Of a stretch of 42,495 nt of DNA, positions 5,127-17,647 are shown piece by piece. The position numbers and the translations under genes are program-made. The notes beneath the pieces are model-generated. The model was not told the origin of the DNA, searched no databases, and saw only the letters and a program-made list of their open reading frames with translations. Positions within the stretch are counted from its first letter, which is position 1. Every line of letters begins with the position of its first letter. The stretch lies in NCBI GenBank assembly GCA_913044215.1, contig CAJWOT010000007.1, positions 1 to 42,495 on the forward strand, given 5' to 3'. The stretch comes from an uncultured Rhodospirillaceae bacterium. GTDB taxonomy: Bacteria; Pseudomonadota; Alphaproteobacteria; UBA8366; GCA-2717185.

Positions 5127-6587
5127 TCAGTCTCCGGCCTCGATCGGCGCGGCTTTCCAGAAATAGCGGCGGAAGCCGCGTTTGCCGTCGTAATCTTTCA
5201 CCCGGAACATCATACGCATCGGCAGGCCCACATCCAATTTGGCACCGGGCGTGACGTCCGTGAAGTCAATCATCATACGCCCGCCCTCGTCGAATTGCAC
5301 CATGCCGTAATAGGCCGGCGGATCGGCGGAATAGGTCAGGCTGTCCGCGGTGTAGGAGTTCATCTTGCCGGTCATTTCGGCGAAGGAATGGTCCTCCTGC
5401 GTGTGAAAGGCCTCGCAGTTTGGATTCACGCAGACCGCGGTCTTCGGGTATTGCAGGGTGCCGCATTTCGTGCATTTGCCGCCGACGAGCCCCAGGATCA
5501 TGTCCTTGTTGCGGTAAAGCGTGGTCATGCCGCTCTGCCGGTCGACCTCTGCGCGCAACCCGTGCTCCGAATTGATCAGTTCGTTGAAGGACAGGAACTT
5601 GTTGTAATTGGTTTCCTCTCGCCGACGGGCAAGATGGCCGTTGATGCCGGTGCGTTTCGGCAGCTTGGCCAGCGCGTCCGTCGTCTCGACCAGGATCGCG
5701 TCCGCGCCCTGTCCGAACCCGACGACCAGAATCTTCTGCCCCGGCGCGGCCTCTTCCAATGCGTTCACCAGCATGACCAGCGGGTGTGCAACGCCGGACT
5801 CGCCCATATTGGCCTGCAGGTTATCGCGCACGCCGTCTCCGGCGACCCCCAGCCGCTTGGCGATCATACCGGCGACGCGGCGCGCAGCCGCCGGGAAGCA
5901 GAATTGATCGACCGCATCGGCCGCGACGCCAGCCTTCGCCAGCATCTTCTCAACCGCATCCGGCACGATCTTGAGATAGCCCTCGTCGCGGATCCAGCGC
6001 TCCTCCCAGACATAGTCGTAGGCGTTGTCCTGGCCGCGGTAATGGTCGACGAAATCGACCGTTTCGGTGTGATATCCCAGCACCGTGGCCACCACGTCGC
6101 CCTCACCGACCAGCAGCGCCGCCGCGCCGTCGCCGGTGGTCAGCTCCAGCGGGTTCGCCGCCTTGGTCCGGCGCTTCTCTCCGCTCGCCAGAAGCACCGG
6201 GCCACCGGCGCCACCCGATGCCTGCAAGGCCGCGATCAGGCCCGAGGTTCCGGCACGCTGCGAGGCCGCGATATCCATGGTCTGAATGCCGCTGTCGAGG
6301 CGCAGTGCCTCGGCCACGATGCCGCTGTTCTGCCGGTCTTGGAACGGATAGCTGGTCGACGCCATGTAGAGCGCGGCCAAGCTATTTCGGTCGAAACCGC
6401 CCAGACAATCACGCGCCGCCTCGACAGCCATGGTGACGCTGTCCTCGTCCCAATTGGCCATCGACCGCTCGCCCTTGGCGAGCCCCTTCAGCGCTGGATT
6501 GAACCAGGAATTCGCGTCCGCGATCGACTGGCGGCTCAAGCGAATGCGCGGCACGTAACCGCCAAAGGACAAAATCCCCGCTGCCAT
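5127..6587 (-). CDS. HMG-CoA-synthase-like (thiolase fold) protein fused to C-terminal DUF35 Zn-ribbon/OB-fold
   Basis: N-term GILSFGGYVPRIRLSRQSIADANSWF; C-term GGKCTKCGTLQYPKTAVCVNPNC Zn ribbon, then an OB-like segment; nucleophile region DIAASQRAGTSG has Gln where Cys is expected. Confidence 0.88.
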   Translation of the reverse strand: MAAGILSFGGYVPRIRLSRQSIADANSWFNPALKGLAKGERSMANWDEDSVTMAVEAARDCLGGFDRNSLAALYMASTSYPFQDRQNSGIVAEALRLDSGIQTMDIAASQRAGTSGLIAALQASGGAGGPVLLASGEKRRTKAANPLELTTGDGAAALLVGEGDVVATVLGYHTETVDFVDHYRGQDNAYDYVWEERWIRDEGYLKIVPDAVEKMLAKAGVAADAVDQFCFPAAARRVAGMIAKRLGVAGDGVRDNLQANMGESGVAHPLVMLVNALEEAAPGQKILVVGFGQGADAILVETTDALAKLPKRTGINGHLARRREETNYNKFLSFNELINSEHGLRAEVDRQSGMTTLYRNKDMILGLVGGKCTKCGTLQYPKTAVCVNPNCEAFHTQEDHSFAEMTGKMNSYTADSLTYSADPPAYYGMVQFDEGGRMMIDFTDVTPGAKLDVGLPMRMMFRVKDYDGKRGFRRYFWKAAPIEAGD

Positions 6588-6741
6588 GTTTCTCTCTCCC
6601 TACGGCCGGTGGCGCCCGTTCAAGCGGACGCGTCGTCTACCGTCACGCGATACACCCTCACGGCGGATTTGTCTATTCGTCGCACCCGTTTCGCGACAAC
6701 CTAGAACCGCCTATAAAGAACGTCAGCGAGGAGAACCGAAG

Positions 6742-8052
6742 ATGCTGACAGCCGTCGAAAACGATCTGTTAACCCGAACCGGACCCGCAGCGCCGATGGG
6801 ACAGTATTTCCGCCGCTTTTGGCAGCCCGTCGCCCTGTCGGAAGAACTGGCGGAAGCGGACGGACCGCCGGTCCGGGTCAATATCCTGGGCGAGGCGCTG
6901 GTTGCATTCCGAGACACGGAAGGCCGGATCGGCTTGATCGACTCCTATTGCCCGCATCGCGGGGCCGATCTGTTCTACGGCCGCAACGAGGAGTGCGGCC
7001 TGCGTTGCGTCTATCACGGCTGGAAGTTCGGCGTGGACGGCAAGGCCATGGATCTACCCAACGTGCCGCCCGGCGTACGCATGCACGATACGATGCGGGT
7101 GAAGGCCTACCCGACGCGGGAATATGGCGGCTATGTCTGGGCGCATCTGGGACCGCCCGCCGAAGAACTGCCGGGCGGCGTGCTGCCTGAAATACCGCAG
7201 CTCGAATTCGGGCAGATTCCATCCGAAAACCGTTACGTCACCAAACAACTCCTGGAATGCAATTGGGCGCAGATCATCGAAGGCGATCTCGACACTTCAC
7301 ACTTTTCCTTCCTGCACATGCCGGCGCCCAGCGTCGCGTCGAACAAGAACCCGGACGCGCCGGCGGACGAGCGCCGTCTGCGCTGGATCCGCAACGACCC
7401 GATGCCGCAATTTTCCATCAAACAGCATGAGGTCGGCTTCGTCGTCGGCGGTATGCGCGAGGCTGACGGCGAGAAGTACTGGCGCATGACGCAATACATG
7501 CTGCCCTCGCACGGCACCGGCCCGTCGACCATGCCGGGCGAAACCTATTTCGGCTTCACCGTCGTGCCCGTCGACGACGAGGCATCCTGGGTCTTCACCT
7601 ATGCCTGGAACCCGGAACGGGTGATCGACGCGGCGGAGCGCGAGAAGCTGGACAACGGGCACGGAGTGATCGCCAAGCTGGGCGAGGACTACCGGCCGCT
7701 CAAGAACCGCTCAAACGACTTCATGATCGACCGCGAGGTGCAGAAGCACCGTACCTTCACCGGTGTCGCCGGTTTGGCCGAACAGGACGCGATGATCCAA
7801 CAGAGCCAGGGCTATATCGCCGACCGCACGCGCGAGAACCTGACCGCCACCGACGCCGCTATCGTCCGCTTCCGCCGCACGGTGATGGAAGCAGCACAAG
7901 CCTTGGCGGACGGCACCGAACCCGAAGCCCCGCAGCTGCATGACTACTACAAGACCCGCCCGGGCAGCTGGTTTGCGGCCGAGGGCGTGCCGTTCGAGGA
8001 CGTGCTGCAGGAACGCTTCGGCGACCCGCTGGGGCGTGTGCCAGTGAACTAG
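6742..8052 (+). CDS. Rieske aromatic ring-hydroxylating oxygenase, alpha subunit (phthalate 4,5-dioxygenase-like)
   Basis: Rieske CPHRGADLFYGRNEECGLRCVYHGW; mononuclear Fe motif EGDLDTSHFSFLH; ATG 6742 with upstream GAGGAGAA. Confidence 0.93.
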   Translation: MLTAVENDLLTRTGPAAPMGQYFRRFWQPVALSEELAEADGPPVRVNILGEALVAFRDTEGRIGLIDSYCPHRGADLFYGRNEECGLRCVYHGWKFGVDGKAMDLPNVPPGVRMHDTMRVKAYPTREYGGYVWAHLGPPAEELPGGVLPEIPQLEFGQIPSENRYVTKQLLECNWAQIIEGDLDTSHFSFLHMPAPSVASNKNPDAPADERRLRWIRNDPMPQFSIKQHEVGFVVGGMREADGEKYWRMTQYMLPSHGTGPSTMPGETYFGFTVVPVDDEASWVFTYAWNPERVIDAAEREKLDNGHGVIAKLGEDYRPLKNRSNDFMIDREVQKHRTFTGVAGLAEQDAMIQQSQGYIADRTRENLTATDAAIVRFRRTVMEAAQALADGTEPEAPQLHDYYKTRPGSWFAAEGVPFEDVLQERFGDPLGRVPVN

Positions 8053-8067
8053 CGCGGAAATTTCGCG

Positions 8068-9018
8068 TTAACCAACCAACGGCATCACTTCCGAGGCGAA
8101 CGCCTCGATCGTGTCCAGCGAACGCTGCACGTCGCTGTCTTCGAAGCCGATTAGCACCGTGTTGAGGCCTGCATCGGCATAGGCGCGGGCGTCTTCGGCG
8201 ATCTGCTCGGCCGAGCCGGAGAAGGCCCATCGGTCGGTGCCGCCGGCCTCCGCGGTAAGCTTGTAGGTCGGGGCGAACATCGCGGTGTCGATCTTGGACG
8301 GGTCACGTCCCGCTTCTTCGGCGAATTTGTGGATATCAGCCAGGGCCGCGGCGAACTTGTCGGGCGTGTCCATCATGTGGCGCGGGTTGCGCATCACCGG
8401 ATACCAGCCGTCGCCAAGCCGCGCTGTGCGCTTGCGCGCCGCCATGCCCTCGCCGCCAATCCAGATGGGCGGACCGCCCGCCTGTACCGGTTTCGGTTCG
8501 AAGGACACGTTCTTGAAGGACACGAAATCGCCGTCATAGACCGGTGCTTTTTCGGTCCACAAGGTCTTGAATGCCTCGATATACTCGTTCGATGCTGCGC
8601 CGCGCCGCTCGAAAGGCGGCGCGCTCAACAACGCCAGTTCCTCACGCATCCAGCCCACGCCGACACCGGCCGTCACCCGCCCCTTCGACAGCAGGTCGGC
8701 GGTGGCAAGCTGTTTCGCCGTCTGAATCGCCGGCCGGTGCGGGATCACCATAACCGAGGTCAGCAGGCGGATCTTCTCCGTCACTGCGGCCGCATAGGTC
8801 AGGCAGGTGAGTTGATCGAGACAGTCGCCCGTGTCGAGCCCGGGCCAGTTACCGTCATCGCTGTAGGGGTATTTCGGGTCGATCTCATGCGCAATGATGA
8901 TGTGGTCGCTGATACCGAGATAGGCGTACCCCAGTTCGTCCGCCCTCTGCGCCAGGGCCCGCAGACCGTCTGTCTTTGCCGCGGCGCCACGCGTGCCCAG
9001 ATGCAAACCGAAATCCAT
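8068..9018 (-). CDS. LLM class (luciferase-like) flavin/F420-dependent oxidoreductase
   Basis: MDFGLHLGTRG...LGYAYLGISDHIII...LLSKGRVTAGVGVGW. Confidence 0.92.
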   Translation of the reverse strand: MDFGLHLGTRGAAAKTDGLRALAQRADELGYAYLGISDHIIIAHEIDPKYPYSDDGNWPGLDTGDCLDQLTCLTYAAAVTEKIRLLTSVMVIPHRPAIQTAKQLATADLLSKGRVTAGVGVGWMREELALLSAPPFERRGAASNEYIEAFKTLWTEKAPVYDGDFVSFKNVSFEPKPVQAGGPPIWIGGEGMAARKRTARLGDGWYPVMRNPRHMMDTPDKFAAALADIHKFAEEAGRDPSKIDTAMFAPTYKLTAEAGGTDRWAFSGSAEQIAEDARAYADAGLNTVLIGFEDSDVQRSLDTIEAFASEVMPLVG

Positions 9019-9072
9019 AGCGTTTCCTCCCTGTCTACCGAATTCGCGTTCAGAGGGTCTCTGAACGTTTCG

Positions 9073-10293
9073 TTACCAAGCCGCCTCCAGCAGGGACAGC
9101 ATCTGCTCGACATAATCGTCCGGCCTATTGCCCGGGTTGGCGTTGAAATTCTTCAAGGTATCCTGCGCGAGAAGCGGCAACTCCGCTTTCGGTATATCCA
9201 CATCGCTGATCCGCACCGGCATGCCGATGCCGCGATAGATCTCGTCCAGCCGGTCCGCCGTCGCGCCGGCGGCATCGGCCGAACTCATGCCCTTGCGCCA
9301 CACGCCCAGCGCATCGGCGATCCGGGCCGCACTTTCAATATTCTCCGGAGGGGTCAGGCGGGTCACCGTCGGCATCACGCAGGAGGTCGATTCGCCCTGC
9401 CAGACATGGTGGTAGCGGATGTGCAAAGCGGTCGCGAGCGCGTAGGCGCTGGCGCCGGTTTGATCGCGCGCGGTGCGGCGGCCCTGATCGTCGTCACCGG
9501 CCCGGTTTTGCAGGAAGGCGGCGGCGCAGAGATCGATGCGGAGGGCGGCGTTCTCCGGCTCCTCCATGATCCGCGGCAAAGCCTCGTGCAGAAGCTTGAA
9601 GCCGTGCCGGTGATCTCCTTCGACCAATGGGCTCATATCGGTCGCGCCCAGGGTGCGGAGCGTGCTGGAAAAATTCGTCGTCGCCGTCGAGCGGATCAGT
9701 TCCGCCGGTGCGCTCAGCAGGGCATCAGCGTCCCAGAACAGGGCCACTGGCCGCGTCTTGGGATCGTAATACTCCATGCGGTGGTCGAGATCCTCGTTCT
9801 TCAGCCCCGATCCGGCGCGGTTCATCGCCGTGTTCGGCGTGGTCACGACATTGATGATCGGCGGTTTCGGCGCCATCAGGCGCGGGCTGTAGGCGGGCTT
9901 GCCCTCGGGATATTGCGTCATCAGGTCGAAGGGGTCGCCCTCTTCGGCCATCAGGATGGCCACCACGCGGGCGCCGACGATGACGCTGCCGCCGCCCACA
10001 GCGATCAGCAGGTCGGCGTCCGCGGCCTTCGCGGCGGCCACGCCCTTCTCAACCGCCGGCCAGGTCGAATCCTTGTCCATACCGTCGAAGGCGCCGACAT
10101 AGAGCGATCCCAGATTATCGGAAATTCGGCCCAGCAGATCCGTCTTGCTGGCGACGGTCTTGCCGCAGATGACGAAGGCCCGTTGCGCCTTTTGCCGGTC
10201 CACTTCGGTCTTCAGCTTATCCAGCGCGCCGGTCCCGGAATAAAGCCGCAACGGGTAGCCGACGGCGCGGAATGTTCGCGATTCGAGGCTCAT
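9073..10293 (-). CDS. Iron-containing alcohol dehydrogenase / maleylacetate-reductase-like
   Basis: DLLIAVGGGSVIVGARVVAI; NVVTTPNTAMNRAGSGL; fold-typical C-terminus. Confidence 0.85.
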   Translation of the reverse strand: MSLESRTFRAVGYPLRLYSGTGALDKLKTEVDRQKAQRAFVICGKTVASKTDLLGRISDNLGSLYVGAFDGMDKDSTWPAVEKGVAAAKAADADLLIAVGGGSVIVGARVVAILMAEEGDPFDLMTQYPEGKPAYSPRLMAPKPPIINVVTTPNTAMNRAGSGLKNEDLDHRMEYYDPKTRPVALFWDADALLSAPAELIRSTATTNFSSTLRTLGATDMSPLVEGDHRHGFKLLHEALPRIMEEPENAALRIDLCAAAFLQNRAGDDDQGRRTARDQTGASAYALATALHIRYHHVWQGESTSCVMPTVTRLTPPENIESAARIADALGVWRKGMSSADAAGATADRLDEIYRGIGMPVRISDVDIPKAELPLLAQDTLKNFNANPGNRPDDYVEQMLSLLEAAW

Positions 10294-11228
10294 GCGAGCG
10301 CTCCCGCCAAATAGTCGCCGACCTCGTCGATGGCGTCCTGAGCACAGGGGATAATGCGACCCATCTGCATGAAGCCGTGGATCGTGCGGTCGTACTGGGT
10401 GTAGCGGACCGCGACTCCCGCGGCCTCAAGCCGGTCCGCATAGGCCTTGCCTTCGCTGCACAGCGGATCGAGGCCGGCGGTGAGCACCAGGGTCGGCGGC
10501 AGGCCGCTCATATTCTCGCGCCGCAACGGCGAGGCGTCCGGTTCGAACACCGAGTCCGCATGGCCGAAATAGTGCTCGTGGAACCACTCCATGACCGGTG
10601 TCGGGATCGGGAAAATCTCACCCATGGCGCGACGGGTCTCGTGATCGCCGCGGCCATGGTCGGTCACCGGATAGATCAGCGCCTGGCAGCGCAGCGCGGG
10701 GCCGCCCGCATCCACAGCGCGGTGCGCCGCAACGGCCGCCAGGTTGCCGCCGGCGCTGTCGCCCGACACCGCGAGACGGGTGGGATCTCCACCAAAGGCG
10801 GCGGCATTCGCCGCAACCCAGTCCAGCGCCGCGCTGGAATCCTCGACCCCCGCGGGATAGCGGTGCTCCGGGGCGAGCCGGTAATCGACCGAGACGACGA
10901 TCGCGCCGGACCGGTTGGCCAGACGCCGGCACAGCGGATCGTGCGTGTCCAACGAGCCGATCACGAACCCGCCGCCATGCAGGTAGACGCAAACCGGCAA
11001 GCCGGTTTGATCGGAAGGCCGATAGATACGCAAATCTAGCGCACCGCCAGGCCCCTCGATGGTCCGATCCTCGATAGCGTGGACCGGTTCCGGGTCGAGA
11101 TTGGTCTTCACCGTGCCTGCCGCCTGGAAGGCTCGTGCCTCGTCCGGCGTCATTTCGATCATCGGCGGCGCATCGGCGGCGGCCACCCAGTCGAGCATCT
11201 TCTGCGTGCCCGCATCCGGTTCGTACAC
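10290..11228 (-). CDS. Alpha/beta hydrolase (hormone-sensitive-lipase-like)
   Basis: YLHGGGFVIGSLDTHD; SVDYRLAPEHRYPAG; nucleophile GDSAGGN; ATGA 4-nt overlap with the downstream Fe-ADH gene. Confidence 0.93.
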   Translation of the reverse strand: MYEPDAGTQKMLDWVAAADAPPMIEMTPDEARAFQAAGTVKTNLDPEPVHAIEDRTIEGPGGALDLRIYRPSDQTGLPVCVYLHGGGFVIGSLDTHDPLCRRLANRSGAIVVSVDYRLAPEHRYPAGVEDSSAALDWVAANAAAFGGDPTRLAVSGDSAGGNLAAVAAHRAVDAGGPALRCQALIYPVTDHGRGDHETRRAMGEIFPIPTPVMEWFHEHYFGHADSVFEPDASPLRRENMSGLPPTLVLTAGLDPLCSEGKAYADRLEAAGVAVRYTQYDRTIHGFMQMGRIIPCAQDAIDEVGDYLAGALA

Positions 11229-11245
11229 GTTTCTTCTTTCCTCGT

Positions 11246-11872
11246 TTAATTCTCGGCGCGCGGCTGCGCGCCCGCGTTCTTCACCAATTCCTCGATCGCC
11301 TCGTAGGGCTGCGCGCCCACGACGCCATAGCCGCCGGCAGCGAATGTCGGCACCCCGGTGACGCCGCTTTGATGCGACCGCACCCAGTCCTGGTCGACCG
11401 CGTCCTTGAACGTCCGCTGCTCCAGAACTTCGCGGGCAGCCTCTTCCGGCAGGCCAACCGCGCGCACCACATCCATCAGCACGTCGATATCGCCGATATT
11501 GCGGGCGTCGACGAAATAGGCGCGGTACAGCGCGTCATGGATGCCGTAACCGCCCTCCTGCGTGTCGGCCCACTTGCCAAGTTCTTGAGCCAGCCGGCTG
11601 TTGTAGGTGTGCGTACGCTTGCCGTAGGGCAGGCCTTCCGCCTCCATCAGCCCCTTCATGCGGGCATACATCGCATCGACGTCGACACCACGGCCGGCGA
11701 AAAGGTCTTCCAGCGAGCGGCCTTCCGTCGGCGTGTCGGGATGCAGAGGGAAGTGCACAAGCTGCACGTCGATGTCATAACTTTCCCGGAGCTTATCAAT
11801 ACGCACGGTACTGAGATAACACCACGGTCATACGTAATCGGTGAAAACCTGGAACGTGACGGTTTCGGCCAT
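11246..11872 (-). CDS. DsbA/FrnE-like thioredoxin-fold oxidoreductase with in-frame UGA at the active site (candidate selenoprotein, UPWC motif)
   Basis: From ATG 11872 (SD GGAAGGA upstream): MAETVTFQVFTDYV-[TGA 11830-11828]-PWCYLSTVRIDKLRESYDIDVQLVHFPLHPDTP...; cis-Pro TGVPTF; no other stop before TAA. The ORF track starts only at an internal GTG (11806). Confidence 0.75.
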
Positions 11873-12224
11873 GAATAATCCTTCCGAAAAATTGCTGGGG
11901 ATGATGCCTGTCGGCCAGCAGCAGGCGTCCGTCTGGAACTGATGCTATGACGTTGGACCGGACATTTCTATGCCGTTCTTATCGGTTGGGACATGCTCGC
12001 CTCGCCTAAAAGGCGAACAACTGGACCCTTTTCACAATGATATTACCGGAAATGATCGCGTACCCGCACGCATCTGGTTGTTCCCGCGACCAAACTCGCC
12101 ACATGCGGCGGTGGCTCCGTCAGAGACGTAAAGCCAATAATCCGCCCGCGTCGCAACGGGCGTATCCGCCAAGCAGCGGGACACAACGTTACAGACCAGC
12201 TACCGGTTCAGTTTCTAGCGCCGC

Positions 12225-13280
12225 CTACTTAAATGCCGGCATCACATCGTGGGTAAGAATGCGCAGGCTGTTTTTGACCTGGGCCTCCGTCAGCATCCCA
12301 CCGGCGTTGAGCTCCGCGATGACACCATCGATGCCCAATACTTCGCTCCACTCATTGAAACGGTCGATGAGACTTTGCGACGATCCGAAAGCCACACGGC
12401 TTTTCAGAATATCGTCGTAAGTCAGCGACTGCAGCGTCGCTATCGTCTTCGCCGCCCCAACCGTGCTGCTGCCGGCACTGGCCGCGTTGGCCTGCGACGC
12501 CGCGACCATTTTCGCCTGACGCTCAAAATAATAGACGATGTTTTCGCGTGGCTCCTCGAGCGCCGCCTCCTGCGTATCCGCGGCATAGACCGGCACGCGA
12601 AGATAGACGCTGCCATTCCCGGCATGACCGGCTTCCTTCCAGCCCGCGCGATAGACGTCGAGATTTTCCCGCAGCGCCTCCAACCCGTCGCCCCGCAATC
12701 CGACGAACAGGGGCAAACCTTCCTTGGCCACTTTTGAAAACGTGCCCGGCGACGTTGCCGCCATCCGCATCGGCGGCGTCGGTTTCTGAACCGGCTGCGG
12801 CACCACTTGCGCTTCAGTTACCTTGTAGAATTTACCGTCGAAAGAAAACGGTTTTCCCTTCCACGCCTCGCGCAACACGGCCAAGGCTTCGTCGAACCGT
12901 TCTTGGCTCTCATCGTAATCGATGTTGTAGCTGTTATAAGCCCGCCGAAATCCGCTGCGGCCGATACCAAACTCCAACCGGCCACCGCTGATCTGATCCA
13001 ACGTCGCTGCTTCCTCCGCAACACGGAGCGGGTTGGTCAAGGGGAGCACGTAGACCGCCATGCCGATCCCCATCCGATTGGTTCGCGCCGCAATCGCGCT
13101 TGCGGTGACGATCGGCGATGACAGGACGGAACGTTGCGGGCTGAAATGGAACTCGGAAAGCCAGGCGCTGTCCAATCCCCAAGATTCAGCGGCGTCCACC
13201 AAATCGAACCCTTCACGGAATGCCTCCACATCCGAACCGCTTTCGCGGAACCCGAATTCCATGAACATCCCTATATGCAT
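12225..13280 (-). CDS. LLM class flavin-dependent oxidoreductase
   Basis: MHIGMFMEFGFRESGS...AWLSEFHFS...ISGGRLEFGIGRSGF. Confidence 0.92.
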   Translation of the reverse strand: MHIGMFMEFGFRESGSDVEAFREGFDLVDAAESWGLDSAWLSEFHFSPQRSVLSSPIVTASAIAARTNRMGIGMAVYVLPLTNPLRVAEEAATLDQISGGRLEFGIGRSGFRRAYNSYNIDYDESQERFDEALAVLREAWKGKPFSFDGKFYKVTEAQVVPQPVQKPTPPMRMAATSPGTFSKVAKEGLPLFVGLRGDGLEALRENLDVYRAGWKEAGHAGNGSVYLRVPVYAADTQEAALEEPRENIVYYFERQAKMVAASQANAASAGSSTVGAAKTIATLQSLTYDDILKSRVAFGSSQSLIDRFNEWSEVLGIDGVIAELNAGGMLTEAQVKNSLRILTHDVMPAFK

Positions 13281-13304
13281 GATCTACGCTTTCTGTACTG
13301 GCGG

Positions 13305-13865
13305 CTAGGCGCCGCTTTTTTCCCGGAACTCCGGATAAAGGTTCACATAACCCAAAGCGACGCGCTTTTCGGCATTCGCGCGGGCCTTTTCCTTGCTCAT
13401 CGGAATGAATCCGAAACCTTCGACGAGCCGGTTCATGAAACTCATCCGCGCGCACACCGCGATCGCATCGTGCAAGGCCTTTTCATCCCAACCAGCCTCG
13501 AACACCGCATCTGCGTCTTCTTGCGCCATCTCGCTCGGCGCCAGAGTCAATTTACGAATGAATTTGAACAGTGGCTTGAATTTGTCGTCGACCGGCGCCG
13601 AATCGATGTTTTCGAGCAGCTTATCGACAAGCCCCTCCTCGATGCCCCAGGCATAAGCAGCCGCAGAGTGCGCGGTGTAAGCGAACTTGCAATTCGCCGT
13701 ACCAACGACAAAGGCCGCAATCAACTCTCGTTCGCCGGGCGTAAATGGCGACGGCCCGTTCATGATCGCCTGTCCCATCTGCGACCAAGGCCCGTAAATA
13801 TCCGTATAGGTGCCAAACACGTTCGCCGGACCGGCGTCCTCCGGTAATGACTTGAAAAAGGACAT
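13305..13865 (-). CDS. Carboxymuconolactone decarboxylase/AhpD-like family protein
   Basis: FTPGERELIAAFVVGTANCKFAYTAHSAAAYAWG...AVFEAGWDEKALHDAIAVCARMSFMNRLVEG. Confidence 0.85.
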   Translation of the reverse strand: MSFFKSLPEDAGPANVFGTYTDIYGPWSQMGQAIMNGPSPFTPGERELIAAFVVGTANCKFAYTAHSAAAYAWGIEEGLVDKLLENIDSAPVDDKFKPLFKFIRKLTLAPSEMAQEDADAVFEAGWDEKALHDAIAVCARMSFMNRLVEGFGFIPMSKEKARANAEKRVALGYVNLYPEFREKSGA

Positions 13866-13950
13866 ACCGTCCGACCTCACAGTTATTCAGGGAGTTCCCC
13901 GCGCATAGGGGAGAAGTCTATTCCATTTCAACGCCAAGACAAATTTGACG

Positions 13951-16290
13951 TCAGCTCTTCGCCTCTTTTCGCGCCGCATCGAGTAGCGAAAGCAGGTAGG
14001 GCGGTGTCACAGGGCATTGCGTGACGCGAACGCCAAACGGCGCCAACGCATCCTCGATCGCACCGGCGATGGCGGCCAGTGCCGGAATCGTGCCCCCTTC
14101 ACCAGCGCCCTTGACACCAAGCGGGTTCAGCGGTGTCGGAGTCTCCATATGAACTTGCTGCGCGCGTGGCACATCCGTCGCCATTGGAACCAGATACTCG
14201 CCAAAATTGACGGTCTGGGGCTGCGCGTCTTCGTCGTAGTGCATCCATTCGTATAGCGCATTGCCGACACCGTGCGCGATGCCTCCCATGACCTGTCCCT
14301 CGACCATCTTCGGATTGATCATCGATCCGCAATCATGGGCGGTGGTGTAGCGGAGAATTTTCACGTCGCCCGTTTCTATGTCGACCTCCACTTCGGCGAC
14401 ATGGGCACCATTCGCATAGGTCGACCGCTCCGGCGTGAAGTAGGACGTCTCTTCCAGTCCGGGAATGACGCCACCGGGCAAGGCAAAGCCGGGCATGCCA
14501 TTGGTGAATGTCGCAATCTCCGCAAAACTCTTGCCATGATCCGGCACACCTTTGACGAAAACTTTGCCATCGGCGAGATCGAGATCTTCCTCCGCTGCCT
14601 CCAGCAAATGCGCCGCGGCTTTGACCAACTTCTCGCGCACCGTGTTCGCCGCCATTTGCGCGGACGGGCCCGCGTTCGCCGTTATTCGGCTCGCAAAGGT
14701 CCCGATCCCGATGCCAACGCCGGCGGTATCCCCCGGGGTAACGGAAACGTCCTCCGGCTTCACACTCAACCGGTCGGCGACGATCTGTGCCAGCATGGTT
14801 TGGTGTCCCTGCCCTTGCGGCGCGGCGCCGGTCTGGACCGCGACCTTACCGCTCATCTCGACCTTGACATTGACACCCTCGAAAGGCCCGAGACCGGTTC
14901 CCTCCACGTAAGACCCCAGACCGATGCCGATATAGCGTCCGTCTTTCCGTGCCGCAGCCTGCCGTTCCCGGAAGCTTTCGTAGTTGGCCAGCGCCAACGA
15001 TTTTGCCTGGCATACCGGATAGTCCCCGCTGTCATAGACGACCGGACTGCCATCACGGAACACCAGCCCGACGGGGTAGGGCATTTGTTCCGGTTGAATG
15101 AAATTGCGCCGACGGACTTCTGCCGGATCGATGCCGAGCTCCTGCGCAACCCGGTCCATCAACCGTTCCATGACGAAGGCCGCCTGCGGCCGACCCGCAC
15201 CCCGCACGGGTGTCGTGGCGACCTTATTCGTGAACACCGCGACGAGATTTATGTGATAGGCCGGCAAGACGTAAGGGCCCGGGATTGTCGTTGAGGAGAT
15301 GAACGGCGTGATGATTCCCCAGGGCAAATAGGCGCCGCTGTCATGTATGAGGCGCCCCCGAATGCCGCGCAGCTTGCCATCCCCGTCGACAGCGACCTCC
15401 ATATCCCAGTATTGATCCCGCTCTTGATAGGTCGCGATAAAATTTTCCCGGCGATCCTCGGTCCACTTGACCGGACGGCCGAGCTGCCGGGCGGCGGCGG
15501 CGGCACAGAATTGTTCCTGATAGTACATGCCTTTCGGGCCGAACCCGCCGCCCACATCCGGTGGCGCTATGACTCGAATCTGCGTTTCGCTTACACCCAT
15601 CATCCGGGCATAAACATTGCGCAACATATGGGGTGCCTGAGTGTTGCTCCACAGGGTCATCGAGTCCGTGACCGGATCGTCCGCGGCAACGACGCCCCGG
15701 CATTCCATCGCGTGGCCGCCGCCGCGATGGGTGAAGAAGCTCTCCTTGACAACATGCGCCGCCCCGGCGAAAGCATCCTCGACATCACCATAGGTCATGG
15801 GAAAATCAGCCGCGATGTTATCGTCCCGGTCGGCATGCGCCGTCGCCGCACCAGGCTCCAGCGCCGCCTTGCAGTCGGCGGACACCGGCAGCGGTTCGTA
15901 ATCGACGATCACCCGTTCTGCCGCGTCCTCCGCAATATAACGGTCGTCGGCGACGACGAAGGCAACGGCCTCGCCAGCGAAACAGACTTCGTCTTTCGCG
16001 AGCGCGAAATAGGTAATGGGATGACGGATCGCCGGGTTCGGGACCAGTAACAGCAACCGCTGATCGCGAAAAGGCTGCGGCAGGTCGTCCTGGGTCAAGA
16101 CCGCATGAACCCCTGGCATGGCCAGGGCTTCTGCGCAATCGATCTTGCCTACCTTGGCATGGGCGTACGGGCTGCGCACGACGGCAGCGTGCAGCATGTC
16201 CGGCAGATGGAAATCGTCGATGAACTTACCGCGGCCGGACAGAAGCGCCGGATCTTCGACGCGGGGAACCGAACTGCCGACCCAGCTCAT
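13951..16290 (-). CDS. Xanthine dehydrogenase family molybdopterin-binding subunit (CoxL-type)
   Basis: MSWVGSSVPRVEDPALLSGRGKFIDDF; GGGFGPKGMYYQEQ; RGAGRPQAAFVMERLMD; GAGEGGTIPALAAI. Confidence 0.94.
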   Translation of the reverse strand: MSWVGSSVPRVEDPALLSGRGKFIDDFHLPDMLHAAVVRSPYAHAKVGKIDCAEALAMPGVHAVLTQDDLPQPFRDQRLLLLVPNPAIRHPITYFALAKDEVCFAGEAVAFVVADDRYIAEDAAERVIVDYEPLPVSADCKAALEPGAATAHADRDDNIAADFPMTYGDVEDAFAGAAHVVKESFFTHRGGGHAMECRGVVAADDPVTDSMTLWSNTQAPHMLRNVYARMMGVSETQIRVIAPPDVGGGFGPKGMYYQEQFCAAAAARQLGRPVKWTEDRRENFIATYQERDQYWDMEVAVDGDGKLRGIRGRLIHDSGAYLPWGIITPFISSTTIPGPYVLPAYHINLVAVFTNKVATTPVRGAGRPQAAFVMERLMDRVAQELGIDPAEVRRRNFIQPEQMPYPVGLVFRDGSPVVYDSGDYPVCQAKSLALANYESFRERQAAARKDGRYIGIGLGSYVEGTGLGPFEGVNVKVEMSGKVAVQTGAAPQGQGHQTMLAQIVADRLSVKPEDVSVTPGDTAGVGIGIGTFASRITANAGPSAQMAANTVREKLVKAAAHLLEAAEEDLDLADGKVFVKGVPDHGKSFAEIATFTNGMPGFALPGGVIPGLEETSYFTPERSTYANGAHVAEVEVDIETGDVKILRYTTAHDCGSMINPKMVEGQVMGGIAHGVGNALYEWMHYDEDAQPQTVNFGEYLVPMATDVPRAQQVHMETPTPLNPLGVKGAGEGGTIPALAAIAGAIEDALAPFGVRVTQCPVTPPYLLSLLDAARKEAKS

Positions 16291-16772
16291 GCGAGTTGGC
16301 TCTTGCGCGCCGCGACATAGGCGAGCGCGGCATCGACCATGCCTTGATATCCGGTGCAGCGGCACAGATTGCCCGAGAGCGCAATACGAATTTCCTCTTC
16401 ACTCGGATCGGCGTTGGTCTCCAGGAACTCGGTGAGCGTGCACAACACGCCGGGCGTGCAATAGCCGCACTGCAGTCCGTGATGGTCTGCAAACGCCTGC
16501 TGCAGCGGACTCAAGCCTTCCTTCGGCGACAGGCCTTCGATGGTCGTAACGTCGCACCCATCGGCTTGCACCGCGAGGGTGAGGCAGGATCGTGCAGAGC
16601 GCCCGTCGAGCAAGACCGTGCAAGCACCGCAGACACCGTGCTCGCAGCCCACATGAGTCCCCGTAAGCATGAGTTCATGCCGCAAGAAATCTACCAAGGT
16701 CCAACGCACCTCGACCTCGCGGCTTACCGCTTCGCCATTGACGGTTAATTGAATTTCACGTCTCTCGCCCAT
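16287..16772 (-). CDS. (2Fe-2S)-binding subunit of molybdenum hydroxylase (CoxS-type)
   Basis: TGTHVGCEHGVCGACTVLLDG; QCGYCTPG; GNLCRCTGYQ. Confidence 0.96.
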   Translation of the reverse strand: MGERREIQLTVNGEAVSREVEVRWTLVDFLRHELMLTGTHVGCEHGVCGACTVLLDGRSARSCLTLAVQADGCDVTTIEGLSPKEGLSPLQQAFADHHGLQCGYCTPGVLCTLTEFLETNADPSEEEIRIALSGNLCRCTGYQGMVDAALAYVAARKSQLA

Positions 16773-16774
16773 GC

Positions 16775-17647
16775 CTACGCCCTCCCTTGCAGCGTCCGGT
16801 CATGGGCCTTGATCAGCGCCCGTCGTGCATAGACGACGGCCAAACGCTGCCGATACGCTGCCGACGCGTGCACATCGTCGATTCCGGCGACGGTCTCCGC
16901 TGACTTCGCCGCCGCGGCGAAAACCGCTTCGCTTGGCAACTGCCCTATCAACGCAATCTCCGCATCGTGCAGGCGGACGGGCCCGGTATCGACACCGGTG
17001 AGCGCGACGGCAACCCGCGCGATCGTCCCATCGCTATTCAGGGTCATCAGTGCGCCCGCTCCCGCCATCGCAAAATCGCCATGCCGTCGCGCCATCTCCA
17101 GAAATGCATAGCCATGATCTTTCGGCCAGCAGGGTGCGGTAATGCCGACCAACAATTCGTCGGGCTCCAGGTTCGGCATCATGTAACCGAGCGACCAGTC
17201 GGCGATTGGGATATCTCTTGTCCCCCGCGCGCTGCCGACATGCAGTGTCGCATCCAAAGCGCTGAACACCGCGGGCATCTCTGCCGAAGGATCGAGATGC
17301 GAAAGGCTACCGCCGACCGTACCACGGTTGCGCGTTTGGATATGGCCGACATTTTCCAGGGCCTCGATCAACAAGGGGCAGCGCGCCTGTACCATCGGCG
17401 AATCCAAGGCATCGCGCTGCCGGACCATGGCACCAAACCGGATCCCGTCACCTTCTTCGCGAATTTCCGTCAGCTCCGGAATACGGTTGATATCGATAAT
17501 GTGTTCGGGCGCCAGATAGCGGAAATTCATCATCGCCATCAAAGACTGTCCGCCGGCGAGGATCTTGGCGTCTTCCAAATTGGCAAGCATCGCCAGAGCG
17601 TCGTCGACGCTTTCCGGGCGGTGATAGGAAAAGGGAGCAGGTTTCAT
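16775..17647 (-). CDS. FAD-binding subunit of molybdenum hydroxylase (CoxM-type)
   Basis: MKPAPFSYHRPESVDDAL; AGGQSLMAMMNFRYLAPEHIIDINRI; GGSLSHLDPSAEMPAV. Confidence 0.95.
   Translation of the reverse strand: MKPAPFSYHRPESVDDALAMLANLEDAKILAGGQSLMAMMNFRYLAPEHIIDINRIPELTEIREEGDGIRFGAMVRQRDALDSPMVQARCPLLIEALENVGHIQTRNRGTVGGSLSHLDPSAEMPAVFSALDATLHVGSARGTRDIPIADWSLGYMMPNLEPDELLVGITAPCWPKDHGYAFLEMARRHGDFAMAGAGALMTLNSDGTIARVAVALTGVDTGPVRLHDAEIALIGQLPSEAVFAAAAKSAETVAGIDDVHASAAYRQRLAVVYARRALIKAHDRTLQGRA

Follow-up and report, generated by a model that had tools for sequence, protein, structure and literature searches.

Gene, reading frame and in-frame UGA

The window, that is, the whole stretch of 42,495 nucleotides analysed here, is one contig (C7) of a draft genome of 4.75 Mb in 525 contigs. 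On its minus strand, positions 11872 to 11246 hold a frame that reads MAETVTFQVFTDYV-UGA-PWCYLST..., which, when TGA is translated as selenocysteine (Sec, U), gives a complete coding sequence of 208 residues with the N-terminus MAETVTFQVFTDYVUPWCYLSTVRIDKL and a single recoded codon, U15. The frame runs from an ATG (11872-11870), located 6 nt downstream of a ribosome-binding site, GGAAGGA, read directly from the sequence (11885-11879), to a TAA (11248-11246), and its assignment to a FrnE/DsbA-like selenoprotein was based on this translation, on Pfam and on full-length orthologues with one TGA. The sole in-frame stop is the TGA at 11830-11828, at the first Cys position of the DsbA/FrnE CPWC motif; as Sec15 it would be the first residue of a UPWC redox motif, aligned to the corresponding Cys of the CPWC motif of D. 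radiodurans FrnE. Without read-through, standard ORF calling gives a protein of 186 residues from GTG 11806. The preliminary description of this DNA had proposed the same Shine-Dalgarno sequence, ATG and read-through frame, and had pointed out the internal GTG start of the ORF track; all of this was recovered here.

When the whole window was scanned for further TGA codons with an open, GC3-rich frame on both flanks, eight in-frame sites were obtained, among which recognisable protein on both sides was found by eye only at 11830-11828, and no other convincing recoded TGA was detected in the window.

The surroundings of the gene (window positions 5130-17647) encode oxidoreductases and hydrolases, including luciferase-like monooxygenases, Fe-ADH, Abhydrolase_3, a Rieske oxygenase and a molybdoenzyme of the xanthine-dehydrogenase type. 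This context was not repeated in relatives, and no recurring gene neighbour was found across their loci, luciferase-like proteins being close to the gene in only 8 of 81; gene context thus yields no clue to the substrate. The largest neighbour cluster is, from its coordinates, apparently a spurious antisense ORF over the selenoprotein gene itself.

Conservation of the UGA and of the hairpin behind it

The conservation of the in-frame TGA was followed at increasing distances. The genus is represented by five genomes, whose copies are 81-98% identical to that of the window, and the family by the 11 orthologues that were found (69-98% identity); every one of these genes has exactly one in-frame TGA, in the family orthologues at the same codon, which is more than chance would give. 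The placement of the TGA at the first Cys of the CPxC motif made in the preliminary description is confirmed. When 386 genomes of the class were sampled, a close homologue was found in 17 of them, each time with the TGA. A broader set of 108 loci was composed of 80 named loci from a species-genome collection (the best 80 of 319) plus the family and class orthologues; some of these loci repeat the same gene, and 90 sequences are distinct 3' of the UGA. In this set, which includes the best 80 of 319 loci, alignment of the active-site column revealed TGA in 107 loci and TGC in one; as only the best 80 of 319 were kept, more distant Cys forms may exist. The preliminary description had considered that close relatives might all carry TGC, but all of them carry TGA. 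In the homologue alignment, conservation at residues 1-18 is among the highest of the whole protein, and past the TGA the frame is open and conserved to its end.

The sole Cys form in this set (108 loci, including the best 80 of 319) is encoded by a betaproteobacterial metagenome-assembled genome (locus L144:4001-4600, plus strand; genome G397), in which no selA match was found and in which the gene keeps only two of the seven pairs of the hairpin described below. It thus appears that Sec was replaced by Cys at this locus once the Sec machinery had been lost.

The UGA is followed by a stem-loop of the bacterial SECIS type, supported by pairing, covariation, a loop G and the consensus fold, whose upper part (minus strand, 11814-11796) consists of a 7-bp stem, UCAGUAC (11814-11808) with GUAUUGA (11802-11796), closing the 5-nt loop CGUGC (11807-11803). 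The stem starts 13 nt past the UGA and the loop 20 nt past it. In the RNAalifold consensus the structure extends outwards to 11820-11791 through a lower stem of 3 bp (11820-11818 paired to 11793-11791), one pair of which has changed on both sides in 22 cells. The bacterial SECIS model has been described as an upper stem of 4-16 bp and a loop of 3-9 nt with a G in its first two positions, at 16-37 nt from the UGA and with a minimum free energy of -7.5 kcal/mol or less (PMC13188914). The hairpin found here fits this model in having 7 bp, a 5-nt loop with G at position 2 and a distance of 20 nt, and the window sequence reached -12.2 kcal/mol over 60 nt, although only 66 of 107 sequences folded at -7.5 kcal/mol or below when a 39-nt slice was used. 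Loop position 2 is G, followed by U or G, in all 107 UGA sequences (from loci including the best 80 of 319).

Covariation was assayed on a gap-free alignment of 63 nt from the UGA in the 90 distinct sequences (from loci including the best 80 of 319). In the stem, columns 17-23 with 29-35, 98.7% of the cells were paired, and 18 compensatory cells were counted against a shuffled mean of 2.3, with none of 500 shuffles as high. Pair 21-31 is U-A in 76 sequences and C-G in 14, never mixed, and its change couples a synonymous change in a Ser codon with Ile25Val; on a tree built without residues 15-26 this double change required six changes, of which well supported branches enforce at least three. 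In three related sequences, the A-U of pair 19-33 has become U-A. The codons within the hairpin are nearly fixed (Leu20 as CTC and Arg24 as CGT, each in 87 of 88), the commonest codon having a mean share of 90% there versus 63% elsewhere in the gene. In a clade of three loci (L073, L077 and L110), Ser21 is replaced by Cys, which gives UPWCYLC and places one more Cys close to the active site; the SECIS stem of these loci is altered in a compensating manner (AGT to TGT together with ATT to ATA).

This conserved hairpin is neither of the two put forward in the preliminary description, although it overlaps the first of them. The first (9 bp, loop AUCUC) has one pair broken in 65 of the 90 sequences and showed covariation below all shuffles, and in the second only 51% of the cells were paired, which is no better than in slid versions. 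The SECIS detail is the only part of the earlier selenocysteine reading that proved wrong, the reading as such being supported by the conserved UGA, by selA, selB and selD, and by the covarying hairpin.

Selenocysteine machinery and alternative readings of the UGA

The Sec machinery, proposed earlier as the element to look for in the genome, was recovered with the exception of one component. Contig C79 carries selA (563 bits) with selB (450 bits) immediately behind it, and contig C23 carries selD (420 bits), all above the curated cutoffs. The selD gene (C23:23574-24500) has its own in-frame TGA, in LSHGGGUGCKVAP, so that SelD is a second probable selenoprotein in the same genome. In contrast, tRNA-Sec was not found in the source assembly, nor was it detected near selAB or selD by ARAGORN or Rfam; the candidates tried proved to be tRNAs for Ser, Leu, Ser, Cys and Lys. 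As a tRNA-Sec with anticodon TCA is carried by 10 of 12 genomes of the family, as the source genome is an incomplete draft, and as the stretch bearing this tRNA in a sister genome (G004) has only partial matches of 64-68% in the source assembly, its absence is probably due to a missing contig. The gene and the machinery also occur together across genomes: of the 26 genomes that carry the UGA form, 25 have selA, versus 2 of 36 without the gene, and the single genome with the Cys form has none. The comparison genomes were chosen by running number, four of them belonging to the same order, and form a phylogenetically uncorrected sample. The only genome with the UGA form and no selA (G022) is 77% complete.

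The preliminary description had taken as its main alternative that the TGA is a nonsense change of a Cys codon (TGC or TGT), the gene being a pseudogene, to which a sequencing error can be added. A draft fragmented into 525 contigs and the other broken genes that were reported in the window would fit with this, but the same TGA is carried by 90 distinct sequences from many assemblies (loci including the best 80 of 319), so that neither an error nor a recent nonsense mutation is tenable, and the rest of the protein is open and conserved to its end, the SECIS covaries and the Sec machinery is present; this explanation is thus nearly refuted. Slightly less improbable, but still very unlikely, is that translation takes place only from GTG 11806, the outcome of standard ORF calling, to yield 186 residues devoid of the first strand and the active site. 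The GTG lies within the loop region of the SECIS, residues 1-18 would be lost despite their conservation, the first strand and the UPWC motif are integral to the predicted fold, and such a start gives no reason for TGA and hairpin having been kept in 107 loci (including the best 80 of 319).

The third possibility, that a variant code or general read-through lets a different amino acid (Trp or Cys) be inserted at the UGA, is hardly credible, as nothing was found in its favour and several observations oppose it. The selA, selB and selD genes are complete and relatives have tRNA-Sec(TCA); the UGA occupies the redox Cys position and is followed by a hairpin of the SelB type; TGA still terminates the family orthologues L034, L036 and L037; and the sole genome with a Cys codon among the loci (including the best 80 of 319) has no selA. 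The apparent stop is, from these comparisons, almost certainly a selenocysteine codon, and we hold with high confidence that the product of the gene is a FrnE/DsbA-like thiol-disulfide oxidoreductase, probably cytoplasmic, in which Sec, inserted through SECIS-directed decoding of UGA, would serve as the nucleophilic residue.

Family relationships and possible role of the protein

The protein matched the Pfam family DSBA (PF01323) at residues 8-196 with 110 bits, and its best solved relatives by sequence profile are the structures of D. radiodurans FrnE (2e-29), in agreement with the DsbA/FrnE-like oxidoreductase named in the preliminary description. The model of its fold (pLDDT 90.4) likewise had D. 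radiodurans FrnE as its best match (TM 0.86, about 30% identity). The features of the FrnE subfamily are thus found in the predicted protein: a thioredoxin fold of the DsbA type, a CPWC-type motif with Sec in place of its first Cys, and a cis-Pro loop. The intactness of this loop had been pointed out before, and its TGVP sequence is common to D. radiodurans FrnE. No evident signal peptide was seen by eye, as the protein opens directly with its first strand.

The nearest solved relative by sequence and fold, D. radiodurans FrnE (DR_0659; 5cnw, 5co3, 5coh, 5cp1 and 5xwh), aligns its CPWC to the UPWC motif but uses Cys where the window protein would use Sec. It also has a C-terminal CXXXXC motif, which is thought to regenerate the active site (PMC8945050), whereas the window protein ends before this point; no CXXXXC is present in its 208 residues, in which Cys18 is the only Cys. 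As this motif occurs in many but not all FrnE proteins, some accepted ones being without it (PMC8945050), its absence is not disqualifying.

Selenoproteins of this kind have been known since 2005. The FrnE group corresponds to COG2761. DsbA-like selenoproteins with UxxC were predicted that year from nine Sargasso Sea sequences assigned to COG2761 (PMC1088965). The GOS survey lists them as "DsbA 1", with PF01323 and 63 sequences (PMC2398784), a 2016 survey counted them (PMC5029168), and a 2026 inventory names them "DsbA-like protein form 1" (PMC13188914). The window protein has in common with this form the PF01323 domain, UxxC at the redox site, a SECIS right after the UGA, a marine proteobacterial setting and, with respect to PMC1088965, COG2761. 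Judged by domain, motif and COG, it is a well supported member of this already described class. Another thioredoxin-like selenoprotein family with UxxC, the DsbG-like/Rcas_1661 family lipoproteins (NF041057), was rejected, the match of 33.5 bits against a cutoff of 190 covering only the C-terminal half.

With regard to mechanism, by analogy with established bacterial Sec biology, the ribosome arriving at UGA 11830-11828 would encounter SelB loaded with Sec-tRNA-Sec and recruited by the hairpin at 11814-11796, and the chain would be continued with Sec rather than terminated. Placed where the first long helix begins, the U15-P-W-C18 motif would then cycle between Se-S bonded and reduced forms, with U15 attacking disulfides and C18 resolving them, the family suggesting a cytoplasmic reductase or isomerase. 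As CXXXXC is absent and Cys18 is the sole Cys, regeneration would need another reductant, for instance glutathione or thioredoxin.

Unlike DsbA-like form 1, the family of the window protein has UPWC as an invariant motif and next to no Cys forms (loci including the best 80 of 319). It is conceivable, though we consider it rather doubtful, that these proteins make up a distinct, almost exclusively Sec-using FrnE subfamily, present in Alphaproteobacteria and more thinly in metagenome-assembled genomes labelled as other Proteobacteria, Myxococcota, Rokubacteria and Acidobacteria, which may not have been split from the generic "DsbA-like" selenoprotein class. Equipped with UPWC and one resolving Cys but lacking a regenerating motif at the C-terminus, such a subfamily may depend on Sec, perhaps for a reaction that Cys-containing FrnE proteins perform poorly.

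As standard ORF calling cuts the gene to 186 residues without the active site, and as no NCBIfam model scored above its cutoff for the protein, it has likely been overlooked, or annotated from a wrong start, in many genomes. The alignment together with the covarying SECIS constitutes a ready model for finding further members, and the near-pure use of Sec, with a single Cys form in a genome that lacks selA, makes this family a clean test case for the retention of selenium by an enzyme.
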